Source: Bacteroidales bacterium WCE2004 (GTDB lineage Bacteria; Bacteroidota; Bacteroidia; Bacteroidales; UBA932). Taken from it: 64,000 bases of DNA. The position numbers and the translations under genes were made by a program. Where the stretch lies: positions 62,001 through 126,000 of the forward strand of contig FUZR01000003.1 of the NCBI GenBank assembly GCA_900167895.1, written 5' to 3'. Under the pieces are notes generated by a model. It was not told the DNA's origin. It searched no databases and worked only from the letters and a program-made list of their open reading frames with translations. The number at the start of each line of letters is the position of its first letter. The first letter of the stretch is position 1. Below are positions 6,973 to 61,962 of this stretch, one piece after another.

Positions 6973-7100
6973 TTCGTCGGTCAGGGTGGCCAGGCAAACC
7001 CGTGGCCGCCCGTGGCCTCGTGAACGGGAGGGGCCCGCGCCGACAGGCGTGGGAGGGATGAAGCGAAGCGGAAGGTTTGCCGGCCACCCTGACCGGCGAA
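6973..7100 (+). repeat. Palindromic structured element, copy A
   Basis: One of three copies (others at 10452-10575 and 61838-61962). Terminal arms of about 25 bp (starting CGGTCAGGGTGGCC, ending GGCCACCCTGACCG) pair with one extra base on the 5' side. The core carries CCCGT/ACGGG and CGCC-GACA-GGCG hairpins. Positions 6994-7038 are identical to 61857-61901. The arm sequence is unrelated to those of the other copies. Confidence 0.8.
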
Positions 7101-7195: not shown

Positions 7196-7227
7196 TTTTG
7201 CTTAGGGGAAAAATCCCCAAAGCAAAA
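7196..7227. repeat. Long hairpin TTTTGCTT-A-GGGG / CCCC-A-AAGCAAAA
   Basis: Two 8+4 bp arms separated by an A/A mismatch and a 6-nt AAAAAT loop. Its role is unknown. It could stop transcription on either strand or be a repeat end. Confidence 0.5.
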
Positions 7228-7302
7228 CCAGAAGCGACTGATAATCAGCAATATGCGAAAACAGGGAGCGCGACAATCCATGGATGACCTTGTGTTAATG
7301 GC

Positions 7303-9089: not shown

Positions 9090-10028
9090 ATGGACAAGTT
9101 TACGAGCAACATGAAAGTTGCGCGCCTCGTCGAGGCCAACTACCGACTCCTCGGCGTACTCGCGCGCGTTGGCATAGACGGCAGTTTCGGCGAGAAGACG
9201 GTCTCCGAAGTCTGTATCTCCTCGGGGCTGGATCCGGACACGATCATCCTCCTCTGCGAAGTGTACACGTTCCCGAGTTTCAAGCCGTCGATGGAGCTGC
9301 TGCGCCGCTGCCACGTGGGCGACATCCTCCGCTACATGCACCAGTCGCACGACTACTACCTCAACCGGGCGATTTCCGAGATGGAGAAATCGATCACGAA
9401 ACTGCTCGAACCCTGCCAGCAGAAGCAGCGGGATGTGGTGTGGAACTTCTTCCATGGCTACAAGGTCGAGGTCAAGAACCACTTCGGCTTCGAAGAGCAG
9501 GAGGTCATTCCCTATGTCCAGGGGCTGATTATCGGGCAGACCCGCCCGGGCTTCTCGATCGACCGCTTCGAGGAGAACCACTCCAACATCGACGAGAAGC
9601 TGGGCGACTTCAAGAACCTGGTAATGAAGTCGCTGCCCGCCGTCTGCGACAACGACATCCGCCTGGACCTGCTGGTGCGCATCTACGCCCTGCAGGAAGA
9701 CCTGAAATGCCACACCTACATCGAGGACCACGTCCTGGTGCCGATGGTGCGCCTGCTGGAGAATCCCCAGCGCTTCCGCGACCGCGCGCGCGAGCAGGAC
9801 GAGGAGCCGGAGCAGCACCTGGAGCTGTCCGACCGCGAGAAAGAGATCCTGGTGAGCGTGGCGCAGGGCCTGCTCAACAAGGAGATCGCCGACAAGCACA
9901 ACATCTCCATCAACACGGTGATCACGCACCGCAAGAACATCACCCGCAAGACGGGCATCCGCACGGTGCCGGGTCTGACGGTGTATGCCATCCTCAACAA
10001 CCTGATCGACATCAATTCCATCGAATAA
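9090..10028 (+). CDS. Hemerythrin-domain LuxR-family transcriptional regulator
   Basis: 312 residues. The N-terminal two-thirds carry a hemerythrin-like helical bundle with candidate di-iron ligands His84/87, His122, His131, Glu135, His164, His208 and His214. The C-terminal part (about 246-308) is a LuxR helix-turn-helix, with LSDREKEILVSVAQG and the recognition region NKEIADKHNISINTVITHR. It is probably a cytoplasmic sensor of oxygen, NO or iron state that controls transcription. The open frame continues upstream through the tRNA gene and is not real there; the ATG at 9090 follows the -7 box by 5 nt, and Met8 (9111) is the alternative start. queH starts within its stop codon (TAATG). Confidence 0.85.
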   Translation: MDKFTSNMKVARLVEANYRLLGVLARVGIDGSFGEKTVSEVCISSGLDPDTIILLCEVYTFPSFKPSMELLRRCHVGDILRYMHQSHDYYLNRAISEMEKSITKLLEPCQQKQRDVVWNFFHGYKVEVKNHFGFEEQEVIPYVQGLIIGQTRPGFSIDRFEENHSNIDEKLGDFKNLVMKSLPAVCDNDIRLDLLVRIYALQEDLKCHTYIEDHVLVPMVRLLENPQRFRDRAREQDEEPEQHLELSDREKEILVSVAQGLLNKEIADKHNISINTVITHRKNITRKTGIRTVPGLTVYAILNNLIDINSIE

Positions 10029-10720
10029 TGACGGTCGAAGCGCCGGGCGGCGCCCGGGACATCCTGCTGCACGCATGTTGCGCGCCTTGTTCCGGAGCGG
10101 TGCTCGAATGCCTCCGGGACAGCGGGATTCGGCCGGTCGTCTTCTTCAGCAATTCGAATATCGCTCCGCGCGAGGAATATGAGCTGCGCCTGTCGGAGCT
10201 GCGCCGCTATGGCGAAGTGATGGGCGTGGAGGTCGTGGCCGACGAATATGACCACGACGCCTGGCTGGCGGCGGTCCGCGGGCTCGAGCGCGAGCCGGAG
10301 CGGGGCGCCCGCTGCGCGGCGTGCTTCCGCTTCCGCCTGGCGCGTGCCGCGCGCTACGCCGCCTCCCGCGGCCTCTCCGTCGTCGCCACCACCCTCGCCT
10401 CCTCCCGCTGGAAAGACCTCGACCAGGTCAACGCCGCCGGGCTTGACGCGTGCGGCAGGGTCGACCCCTGCAAAACCGTGGCCACCCATGGCCTCGTAAA
10501 TGGGGGGGACCCAACCGTCAGGTTGGGGGGGATGAGCGCGGAGCGCGAAGTTTTGCAGGGGTCGAGCCCTGCCGCCGCGGACGTGGTATTCTGGGCGCAG
10601 AACTGGCGGAAAGGCGGACTGCAGCCGCGCCGCAACGAAATCATCCGCGAACAGGGATTCTATAACCAGACCTGGTGCGGATGCGAGTTTTCAAGACAAC
10701 CATCCACTAAAAACCAATAG
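10028..10720 (+). CDS. queH: Epoxyqueuosine reductase QueH with an in-frame palindromic insertion
   Basis: 230 residues of the QueH (DUF208) family, which reduces epoxyqueuosine to queuosine in tRNA using Fe-S/metal centres. Motifs: HACCAPC at 15-21, CAACF at 96-100 and the C-terminal WCGC (Cys217, Cys219), so all expected cysteines are present. Residues about 142-183 do not belong to the family. They are encoded by palindromic element copy B (10452-10575), which sits in frame between NAAGLDA and ADVVFWAQNWRKGG. Length without it would be close to the normal ~190. Whether the protein stays active, or the RNA or protein insert is removed, cannot be told. Its start overlaps the regulator stop by one base. 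Confidence 0.88.
   Translation: MTVEAPGGARDILLHACCAPCSGAVLECLRDSGIRPVVFFSNSNIAPREEYELRLSELRRYGEVMGVEVVADEYDHDAWLAAVRGLEREPERGARCAACFRFRLARAARYAASRGLSVVATTLASSRWKDLDQVNAAGLDACGRVDPCKTVATHGLVNGGDPTVRLGGMSAEREVLQGSSPAAADVVFWAQNWRKGGLQPRRNEIIREQGFYNQTWCGCEFSRQPSTKNQ
10452..10575 (+). repeat. Palindromic structured element, copy B (inside queH)
   Basis: Arms of about 25 bp: 5' GCGGCAGGGTCGACCCCTGC..., 3' ...GCAGGGGTCGAGCCCTGCCGC read inverted, matching with one extra G. The core shows paired changes against copies A and C: CCCAT/ATGGG in place of CCCGT/ACGGG, and AACC-GTCA-GGTT as the small hairpin. It has no stop codon in the queH frame. Confidence 0.85.
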
Positions 10721-11086: not shown

Positions 11087-13435
11087 TTATCCGATAAAAA
11101 TTCCGGCCACCAGATACGCCAGCCACGCGACGACCCAGGCCACGGCGCACTGGAACAGCACCATGATGCACGCCCACTTGCCGCCGAGCTCGCGCTTGAC
11201 CGCGGCGATGGCGGCTACGCACGGCGTGTAGAGCAGACAGAAAGCCAGCATCGGGATGGCGGTCAGCACCGTCATCGAAGCCGTCACGTCCAACACCTCC
11301 ATCGTCGCCACGACGCTCTCCTTCGCCAGGAAACCGGTCACAAGCGAAGTCACGATGCGCCAGTCGCCCAGCCCGAGCGGGCTGAAGACCGGGGCGATCA
11401 GGCCGGCGATGCCCGCCAGCATGCTGTTCTCCGGATCCACCATCTGCAGGCGCCAGTTGAAGCTCTGCAGGATCCAGATCACGACCGAAGCCACGAAAAT
11501 CACGGTGAAAGCACGCTGCAGGAAGTCCTTGGTCTTGTCCCAGAGCAGGTGTCCCACATTCTTCGCGCCCGGCATCCGGTAGTTCGGCAGCTCCATCACG
11601 AACGGCGCCGCCTCGCCCTTCTTCGGCGACAGCTTGGAGATCAGCGCGATCAGCACGCCCACCAGGATGGCCGACAGATACAGGATCACCAGCACCAGGC
11701 CGCCGTGGCCCGGGAAGAAAGCGCTCGTGAAGAAGGCATAGATCGGGATCTTTGCCGAGCAGCTCATATAAGGTGTCAGCAGGATTGTCATCTTGCGGTC
11801 GCGCGACGAAGGAAGCGTACGCGTGGCCATCACGGCCGGCACGCTGCAGCCGAAGCCGATCAGCAGCGGCACGATGCTCCGGCCGCTGAGGCCGATCTTG
11901 CGCAGCAGCTTGTCGGTCACGAACGCGACGCGCGCCATGTAGCCGCTGTCCTCCAGCATCGACAGGAAGAAGAACAGGATGATGATGATCGGCACAAAGC
12001 TGACCACCGTGCCCACGCCGCCGAACACGCCGTCCACGACGAGCGAACGCACGGCATCGCTCACGTTCCAGCGCTCCATCGCGCCGTCCAGCACGCCGGC
12101 GAGCCACTGGATCCCCTGATCCAGCAGGTCCTGCAGCGGCGCGCCCAGCACGTCGATCGACAGATAGATCACCAGCGACATCACCAGGGCGAAGATGGGG
12201 ATGGCCGTCCAGCGGCCCGTCAGGACCTTGTCGATCCGGCGGCTGCGGCGGTATTCCTTGCTCTCATGCGGCTTGACGACCGTCTGCGCCGTGAGCTTGC
12301 GGATGAAGGAGAAACGCATGTCGGCCATGGCCGCGTTGCGGTCCAGGCCGCGTTCCTGCTCCATCTGGACGATGATGTGCTCCACCATCTCCTTCTCGTT
12401 CTGCTGCAGGCCCAGGGCCTTCTCGATCGCGGCGTCGCCCTCCACGAGGCGGCTGGCCGCGAATCGCACCGGGATGCCCGCGCGCTCGGCGTGGTCCTCG
12501 ATCAGGTGCATCACGCCGTGCAGGCAGCGGTGCACCGCGCCGCCGTGGTCGTTCTTGTCGCAGAAATCCTGGCGGGCGGGCTTCTCCTGGAAGCGGGCCA
12601 CGTGCATCGCGTGCTCCACGAGCTCCTCGATGCCCTCGTTCCTGGCGGCGGAGATCGGCACGACCGGCAGGCCGAGGATCTCCTCCATCTGGTTGACACG
12701 GATGGTGCCGCCGTTGTTGCGGACCTCATCCATCATATTGAGCGCCAGCACCATCGGCTTGTCCAGCTCCATCAGCTGCATCGTCAGGTAGAGGTTGCGC
12801 TCGATATTGCCGGCATCCACGATGTTGATGATGCCGCAGGGATTCTCGTCGAGGATGAATTCGCGCGAGACGATCTCCTCGGAGGTATAAGGCGAAAGCG
12901 AATAGATGCCCGGGAGGTCGGTCACGAGCGTGTCGGCATGCCCCCGGATCTGGCCGTCCTTGCGGTCCACCGTCACGCCCGGGAAATTGCCGACGTGCTG
13001 GTTGGAACCGGTCAGCTGGTTGAAGAGCGTCGTCTTGCCGCAGTTCTGGTTGCCCGCGAGGGCGAACGTGAGCGTGGTCCCCGCCGGGAGCGGGCTCTCC
13101 TGCTTCTTGTCGTGGAACTTGCCCGTCTCGCCGAAGCCCGGATGGGCGACCGGATTGACGGAGCGGACCGACGTATCGTCGGCGATGCTGGCCACCGGTT
13201 CGTCCAGACCGTCCGTCTGCGCGACGGTGATCTTGGCGGCGTCCGCCAGGCGGAGCGTCAGCGCGTATCCGTTGATCCGCAGCTCCATCGGGTCGCCGAG
13301 CGGCGCGTATTTGACCAGTTTGACCTGAGCGCCGGGGATCAGGCCCATATCCAGGAAATGCTGGCGCAGGGCGCCCTTGCCCCCGACCGCCAGGATGACG
13401 GCATGCCCGCCTATAGGTAATTCTCGAAGTGTCAT
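11087..13435 (-). CDS. feoB: FeoA-FeoB fusion ferrous iron transporter
   Basis: 782 residues. Residues 1-75 form a FeoA-like SH3 domain (MTLRELPIGGHAVILAVGGK...). Next comes a G-protein domain with G1 GNQNCGKTT (about 128-136), VTVDRKDG and DLPG switch motifs, and NMMD (G4). From about 390 to the end are gate and core helices, with GCSVPAVMATR, the Cys-containing FeoB pore motif. It imports Fe(II) across the inner membrane, gated by GTP. FeoA fused to FeoB is common in Bacteroidetes. The start at 13435 is the only sensible ATG; its upstream region lacks a clean -7 box. Confidence 0.95.
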   Translation of the reverse strand: MTLRELPIGGHAVILAVGGKGALRQHFLDMGLIPGAQVKLVKYAPLGDPMELRINGYALTLRLADAAKITVAQTDGLDEPVASIADDTSVRSVNPVAHPGFGETGKFHDKKQESPLPAGTTLTFALAGNQNCGKTTLFNQLTGSNQHVGNFPGVTVDRKDGQIRGHADTLVTDLPGIYSLSPYTSEEIVSREFILDENPCGIINIVDAGNIERNLYLTMQLMELDKPMVLALNMMDEVRNNGGTIRVNQMEEILGLPVVPISAARNEGIEELVEHAMHVARFQEKPARQDFCDKNDHGGAVHRCLHGVMHLIEDHAERAGIPVRFAASRLVEGDAAIEKALGLQQNEKEMVEHIIVQMEQERGLDRNAAMADMRFSFIRKLTAQTVVKPHESKEYRRSRRIDKVLTGRWTAIPIFALVMSLVIYLSIDVLGAPLQDLLDQGIQWLAGVLDGAMERWNVSDAVRSLVVDGVFGGVGTVVSFVPIIIILFFFLSMLEDSGYMARVAFVTDKLLRKIGLSGRSIVPLLIGFGCSVPAVMATRTLPSSRDRKMTILLTPYMSCSAKIPIYAFFTSAFFPGHGGLVLVILYLSAILVGVLIALISKLSPKKGEAAPFVMELPNYRMPGAKNVGHLLWDKTKDFLQRAFTVIFVASVVIWILQSFNWRLQMVDPENSMLAGIAGLIAPVFSPLGLGDWRIVTSLVTGFLAKESVVATMEVLDVTASMTVLTAIPMLAFCLLYTPCVAAIAAVKRELGGKWACIMVLFQCAVAWVVAWLAYLVAGIFIG

Positions 13436-61837: not shown

Positions 61838-61962
61838 GCCGACAGGCAGTGCTGTCGCAAACCCGTGGCCGCCCGTGGCCTCGTGAACGGGAGGGGCCCG
61901 CTTCCGAAGGAAGTGGGAGGGATGAGCGCAGCGAAGGTTTGCGACAGCAGCTGCCTGTCGGC
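61838..61962 (+). repeat. Palindromic structured element, copy C
   Basis: Arms GCCGACAGGCAG-TGCTGTCGC... and ...GCGACAGCAGCTGCCTGTCGGC match inverted with one unpaired base. The core 61857-61901 is identical to copy A; the internal small hairpin differs (CTTCC-GAA-GGAAG) but still pairs. It lies between prmC and a lipoprotein gene. Confidence 0.82.

Follow-up and report, generated by a model that had tools for sequence, protein, structure and literature searches.

Protein-coding palindromes have been described from Rickettsia, Wolbachia, an archaeon and enterobacteria (PMC10969869, PMC2996958, PMC2759123), in the portions of those papers available to us. The RPE and their relatives in Wolbachia and Methanocaldococcus are presented there as small non-autonomous palindromes that lie in frame in many unrelated genes (PMC10969869, PMC2996958), and the ERIC/RU-1, YPAL/RU-2 and RU-3 units as non-autonomous, 100–200 bp long, able to carry ORFs and found within genes (PMC2759123). 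The accessible part of another source has REP/BIME palindromes, which are sometimes intragenic, as proposed to be handled as single strands, and mentions a CGTC tag at one end of RPE and a GTAG tag of REP (PMC3733652). As far as its available text goes, a review of MITEs regards as unexplored what the Rickettsia insertions have contributed to the evolution of proteins (PMC10969869).

The window studied here, a stretch of 64,000 nucleotides from the genome of Bacteroidales bacterium WCE2004, holds three copies of a palindromic element of about 110–190 bp, in which complementary arms of 20–30 bp flank a conserved core. Like the RPE, the element is dispersed (31 copies in this one genome) and lies in frame in many unrelated genes. 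It differs from the RPE, as these are described in the text available, in its lineage, in arms that are not conserved between copies, in a covarying pseudoknot core and in the frequent occurrence of both orientations with flips at fixed sites, and no homology is claimed. With REP/BIME it shares the proposed single-strand handling and the intragenic copies, and with MITEs and the ERIC-type units a non-autonomous nature, a similar size and residence in genes. It probably acts as the RPE do while being a new structural type, with a mover that is a trans factor working on the folded single strand. The reading we favour, with rather more confidence than doubt, is that of a non-autonomous family of mobile palindromes whose own-strand fold is kept, which is read in frame, whose cores are swapped or flipped and which is copied by a trans-acting enzyme. 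No published description of this palindrome family was found in titles and the starts of abstracts, a search that reached few subscription papers or preprints. Rfam gave no match for the element, either in the window and four loci at the gathering threshold or with copy 3 at a permissive one. One stretch of the window showed similarity to plasmids in three weak records.

All three window copies are on the + strand. Copy 1 (6973–7100; model match G000:C3:68985-69090) is intergenic. By folding, it consists of a 5′ arm (6973–7000) in which A6992 is unpaired, a P3 hairpin (7034–7053, also supported by covariation) and a 3′ arm (7074–7100). Its pseudoknot (7001–7028; S1 7001–7007/7014–7020, S2 7009–7013/7024–7028), like those of the other two copies, was placed by comparing the sequence with the covarying columns. 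Copy 2 (10452–10575) lies in frame within queH (+ strand, 10028–10720; epoxyqueuosine reductase, PF02677 E 1e-54, with relatives both with and without the insert), as shown by folding, reading frame and relatives. It has a 5′ arm (10452–10476), a pseudoknot (10477–10504; S1 10477–10483/10490–10496, S2 10485–10489/10500–10504), a P3 hairpin (10510–10527) and a 3′ arm (10550–10575) with an extrahelical G at 10566. Copy 3 (61838–61962), defined by folding and alignment, is intergenic and has the opposite orientation in the near relative RUG544; its parts are a 5′ arm (61838–61863), a pseudoknot (61864–61891; S1 61864–61870/61877–61883, S2 61872–61876/61887–61891), a P3 hairpin (61897–61917) and a 3′ arm (61936–61962) with an extrahelical G at 61950. 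The arms and P3 hairpins of copies 2 and 3 rest on folding.

The original prediction had placed three copies at these positions, and both the sequence as read and the folding, which is far beyond that of shuffled sequences (z = −7.06, −7.22 and −8.11; 0 of 200 dinucleotide shuffles as good for any copy), bear this out. The 45 identical bases it ascribed to two of them are common to copies 1 and 3 (GCAAACCC...CCCGC, counted by eye), each arm pair does leave a single base unpaired (in copy 1 this is A6992, on the 5′ side; in copies 2 and 3 it is a G on the 3′ side), and the change of CCCGT/ACGGG to CCCAT/ATGGG and the changes in the small hairpin are present. Its statement that the arms are unrelated between copies is not wholly right: many copies have the innermost GCAAAACC/GGTTTTGC in common, and the ~10 bp that follow are weakly alike (by eye).

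When the core of copy 3 was used as a nucleotide query against the WCE2004 genome (2.3 Mb), 40 matches were obtained at E ≤10. On reading, 24 of these (L001–L024, E ≤0.004) were genuine, as were two longer forms (L029 and L030, retained despite an E of 0.58), and L025–L028 and ten matches without a locus were discarded as chance. A covariance model made from 21 copies read from the nucleotide search, the genome-wide search that had been proposed with the prediction, then gave 31 copies in this genome, the weakest at E 3e-8, and the arms were complementary in all 26 copies that were folded. In a search of 61 genomes the same model matched at least 33 of the 37 from the same genus, with at least 510 matches summed over the 33, and none of the 24 from other families. 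In a wider draw at least 50 of 149 genomes of the family and at least 11 of 25 genera were matched, and in an order-wide draw at least 5 of 344 genomes, three of them outside the family and representing three further families. All these figures are lower bounds, as the model scored up to 63, 25 and 11 candidates per genome in the three draws under strict filters. The 33 of 37 is not a rate for the whole genus, since at least three genomes of that genus (G106, G156 and G076) were without a match in the 149-genome draw, with up to 25 candidates scored in each.

The core comprises an H-type pseudoknot, the P3 hairpin, a variable P4 hairpin that is often present, and unpaired AGGGG and AGGG runs. 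The element has five helices, one of them the pseudoknot, with changes on both sides. For the 95 distinct rows to which the 101 matches of alignment A3 reduce, 93.1% of 3508 cells were paired over 40 pairs. Both-side changes were seen in 34 of the 40 pairs (26.2 in shuffles), including 6 of the 7 pseudoknot pairs, and the covariation score was 0.510, compared with 0.144 for shuffled and at most 0.096 for slid alignments. As the alignment model contained no pseudoknot, the pseudoknot counts gain nothing from the fit, whereas those of the other helices do. In the pseudoknot helix covariation is strong at three pairs, and one position lacks pairing in most copies (59 of 90); P4 is paired in only 73.6% of its cells. 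Two helices contain GGG runs that are nearly constant, whereas other pairs in the same helices vary. In A3 there are four near-invariant GGG runs, with GGG-N-GGG occurring twice, even where paired, and this invariance suggests a second role for them, e.g. in a G-quadruplex. Longer P3 hairpins were seen in L029, L030, L091, L197 and L035, and L135, L138 and L018 have a hairpin-bearing insert (~57 bp, measured in L138) within the core, which the RUG544 copy at the ribF site does not have.

In the arms, Watson–Crick pairing among the 91 copies with alignable arms is at least 84% of those aligned at a given position, for every position out to pair 22, percentages that are upper bounds since local alignment favours paired positions; the other 4 of the 95 were left out, the arm alignment having stopped short of the core. 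An extra base, mostly G, recurs 12–17 pairs from the core and is on the 3′ side in 28 of 34 gap positions. Integron attC sites likewise conserve structure over sequence and carry extrahelical bases, and the palindrome is like them in both respects; it is unlike them in having a conserved centre and variable arms. GTAG or GTGG is found at the core edge, inside the arms, and GACG adjoins the 3′ arm in one subfamily and is absent from others (by eye). Members of the GTAG subfamily have this motif close to the 5′ core edge and GACG close to the 3′ one, which recall the GTAG and CGTC tags of REP and RPE as given in the available part of PMC3733652.

The mismatches within the arms indicate which strand folds. 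Over the first 26 arm pairs of the 91 copies, G·T mismatches outnumbered A·C mismatches by 62 to 15 (p 6e-8) and G·A outnumbered C·T by 42 to 4; a neutral double-stranded palindrome should give ratios near one in both cases. Whole arm alignments of 95 copies gave 86 G·T and 31 A·C. Part of the G·T excess is supplied by one recurrent position 15 bp from the core. The G·T:A·C ratio was 17:2 in antisense, 21:5 in sense and 24:8 in intergenic copies, with some of the ORFs that count as antisense being shadow ORFs. In antisense copies the host mRNA is the other strand; as the excess persists there, the constraint is on the element's own strand and not on the host message. The folding strand is most likely single-stranded DNA, with RNA as a possibility. 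Selection could keep the own-strand fold because a trans-acting enzyme would recognise it when copying the element. The claim that the folded shape is selected is thus supported twice, by the covariation score (0.510, shuffled 0.144) and by the 62:15 imbalance.

The same imbalance bears on whether the palindrome might be a cis-acting RNA element of the host, for example a regulator or mRNA stabiliser. Some copies (L119 and L133) do come just after TAnnTTTG, which we take to be a promoter-like motif. That function is highly unlikely all the same, given the single-strand signal on the element's own strand in antisense copies (17:2) and positions that are polymorphic between near relatives.

The element occurs within or between genes and in either orientation; its in-frame residence in genes had gone unnoticed in the original prediction. 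A frame scan based on codon usage was applied to 97 copies, which remained of the 105 listed once duplicates and those too close to the end of a locus had been removed. Of these, 51 fell into a weak class and 4 lay between opposite genes; 32 had the same strand and phase on both sides with the frame open, 2 agreed in phase and contained a stop, and 8 differed in phase. Coding flanks on one strand thus allowed 42 of the 97 to be classed, and in 32 of these the frame continues open across the element. The remaining ten were read singly: nine are intergenic, some with an upstream stop codon at the outer edge of the arm, and the other (L137/L125) is in frame inside gcvPB, its phase having been missed by the scan. 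Five weak copies with stops were also read and all are intergenic, the 46 further weak copies being left to their scan class. No copy among those read breaks a gene out of frame. A looser count, by ORFs open through the element, gives 60 copies (25 sense and 35 antisense), using five of the six reading phases (sense 20, 5 and 0; antisense 16, 17 and 2). The stricter 32 is preferred because some of these ORFs are shadow ORFs (e.g. L127, L206, L207 and L212).

Hosts assigned by profile are queH, dsbD-like, ksgA, uvrD-like, rsmF-like, spoU/rlmB-like, recG, polA, ribF, xerC-like, hemW-like and gcvPB, and their classes include rRNA methyltransferases, DNA polymerase A, RecG, a UvrD-type helicase, a Xer-type recombinase, RibF and GcvPB. 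Four further gene names were given by eye without a profile: rsmG (L133), tpiA (L119), aroB and mtaB. At queH the spacing was divisible by three at all 12 loci with both halves, of which 5 have the palindrome and the others are empty or have different inserts. In 114 of the best 120 QueH relatives (6 were without an anchor) the stretch from QVN to NWRKGG ranges from 24 to 104 residues. A second type of in-frame insert (SGPAGPGTLAETKSE...), unmatched by the model, was seen at the same queH and rsmF sites (L036, L297 and protein P0036). Near 12208–12316 of L035, a copy lies where queH and a Xer-like gene have been joined, probably through an assembly join or recombination between copies.

In the favoured reading of a mobile family the host ribosome would read through the element, and the protein would gain about 40–45 residues, as the retention of frame implies. 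Alternatively, splicing could take the element out of the RNA, or the ribosome could bypass it, and it would then never appear in the protein; a highly structured sequence with a pseudoknot would suit such a process. This is extremely unlikely: the 32 strictly classed in-gene copies keep the frame without stops and all 12 queH loci have a spacing that is a multiple of three, neither of which would be needed if the element were removed, and both orientations occur.

Sites were then compared between WCE2004 and RUG544. The 16 of 25 queried WCE2004 sites that were aligned comprised 6 that are empty in RUG544, 5 filled in the same orientation, 2 flipped (the recG copy and window copy 3) and 3 with other content. 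The six give the check on empty sites that had been suggested with the prediction a positive answer. The queH copy, in a separate comparison, is filled in RUG544 with the same orientation, and the recG site is empty in G008, G004 and G072. Among ten between-species pairs at the same site, seven had opposite and three the same orientation. These pairs have junctions at most 7 residues apart, pairs not spanning the junction were dropped, and two L031 pairs, one of each orientation kind, are excluded from the count. When copy 3 is compared with its RUG544 counterpart the extra base flips along with the core, and changes in the arms are matched on both sides (by eye).

QueH proteins 95–97% identical to that of the window keep the arm residues and have a different core, and P0019 (82% identity to the window QueH) reads like a reversed core in similar arms. 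These comparisons, made on protein sequence only, suggest that cores have been swapped inside kept arms. At ksgA the arms differ among WCE2004, G082 and G015 yet largely still pair (by eye). For the mobile family that we favour, exchange of cores may take place by gene conversion between copies, and flipping of the element by recombination across the inverted arms.

The origin of the arms allows more than one explanation. L121 and L122 of WCE2004 have identical cores, and their arms are near chance beyond 6 bp (identities of 0.5, 0.6, 0.6 and 0.4); L332 and L336 of G186 behave alike, and in both pairs the arms still pair within each copy. Similarly, in G136 near-identical cores have differing outer arms with near-perfect pairing within copies (by eye). 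Such pairs are what would be expected if the arms were remade at each insertion, host flank being copied in inverted form beside a travelling core to give each copy perfect arms of its own at birth. Exchange of cores within kept arms gives the same pattern, however: identical cores with unrelated arms are explained equally well by core exchange onto old arms and by fresh arms, and core replacement within old arms is the simpler cause.

Mean arm identities were determined for 89 same-genome pairs outside G119 whose cores are at least 93% identical. They were 0.72 at pairs 7–12, 0.77 at 13–17, 0.78 at 18–22, 0.62 at 23–27 and 0.51 at 28–35, with chance at 0.46–0.48 (0.43 at pairs 28–35). These means show that the inner arms are common to most recent relatives, with the outermost part differing, and the 0.72–0.78 at pairs 7–22 speaks against arms remade at every insertion.

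Ten filled/empty comparisons were scored for inverted similarity of arm and host flank, each score being ranked against the arms of other copies and taken as the better of two looks. The best ranks were 1/95, 5/94, 7/94, 7/94, 8/94, 16/94, 24/94, 34/94, 52/94 and 57/94. On the side of remaking are ksgA, where the right arm end resembles inverted host flank (rank 5/94) and the left arm aligns with residues of the RUG544 empty allele (LSVAGT vs LTVSET), the region upstream of L133 (7/94), recG (7/94 and 8/94) and a core-less copy of a MITE in G119 (1/95). Against it, half of the comparisons rank only 16, 24, 34, 52 and 57 of 94; the null test for inverted copying is weak; the two recG comparisons indicate opposite arms; the empty recG sites of G008, G004 and G072 have no obvious trace of either arm; and the core-less G119 copy may be a deletion product. 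On balance we think it rather unlikely that arms are remade in this way, and doubtful that the element travels as a folded, pseudoknotted single strand which builds its arms by inverted copying of adjacent host DNA and so adds ~40 or more codons, in frame where it survives in genes. If true, remaking of arms would be a new way to insert DNA and lengthen proteins.

The arms might instead be host palindromes, the core having inserted into the loop of pre-existing hairpins. The copy-specific outer arms of 7–20 bp in G136 (by eye) would fit, as would short palindromes at the junction in empty alleles, CTGAC-C-GTCAG at ksgA and TGCCGGCA at L133, which were seen by eye and without a chance comparison. 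No palindrome as long as the arms is seen at recG, ksgA or L133, whose empty sites are clean (by eye), and such an origin is very improbable.

The nature of the mobilising factor was also considered for the favoured mobile family. No mobilising gene was found through the neighbourhoods of 12 Y1 genes or with a reverse transcriptase profile, and the linked transposase or reverse transcriptase that had been envisaged was thus not found. A reverse transcriptase is present in 12 of the 37 genomes, but PF00078 has no match in the WCE2004 genome (95.31% complete), and a retro-mechanism or group II intron was therefore set aside. PF01797 (Y1/HUH) was matched in 27 of the 37 genomes, with two divergent proteins in WCE2004, which raises the possibility that the palindrome is REP-like and owes its movement to the RAYT/HUH proteins encoded in these genomes. 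RAYT recognises a folded single strand with imperfect pairing, according to the available part of PMC3733652. Unlike REP, however, the element is about 125 bp rather than 20–40 bp (~4 times the length), its arms are not conserved and it has no fixed GTAG end. Furthermore, the covariance model found no copy in the neighbourhoods of 12 Y1 genes, both WCE2004 ones included, several of which are flanked by other hairpins (by eye). Movement by these proteins is accordingly improbable, and the statement that the palindrome is not an IS end or simple REP stands as far as Rfam and these 12 genes can tell.

Unlike a MITE, the element has no family-wide terminal inverted repeats, the outer arms (pairs 28–35) being 0.51 identical where chance gives 0.43, and at the clean empty sites in recG and ksgA there is no fixed target and no clear target-site duplication (by eye). 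At L133 the element is bordered by GCCGG on either side, which may represent a duplication of 5 bp (by eye). A duplication seen in G119 was considered as the element's own and rejected, since a pattern search showed it to belong to a separate MITE with several interior kinds. This MITE (L360–L382) has ends like GATTATCCGCAAAATTACC and AT-rich duplications of ~8–10 bp, and one version carries the palindrome and has spread with it.

The family offers a new system, in uncultured Bacteroidales, for studying the enlargement of proteins by selfish DNA. With at least 510 matches, empty alleles, flips and QueH variants with and without the insert, its movement, the reading of the fold by machinery and the tolerance of housekeeping enzymes for a 40-residue insert are all testable.

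Positions 7196–7249 of the window, close to copy 1, contain a hairpin followed by CTGATAATCAGC, similar to those found on either side of a Y1 (HUH) gene at L268, and this may be the REP-like repeat of that gene.
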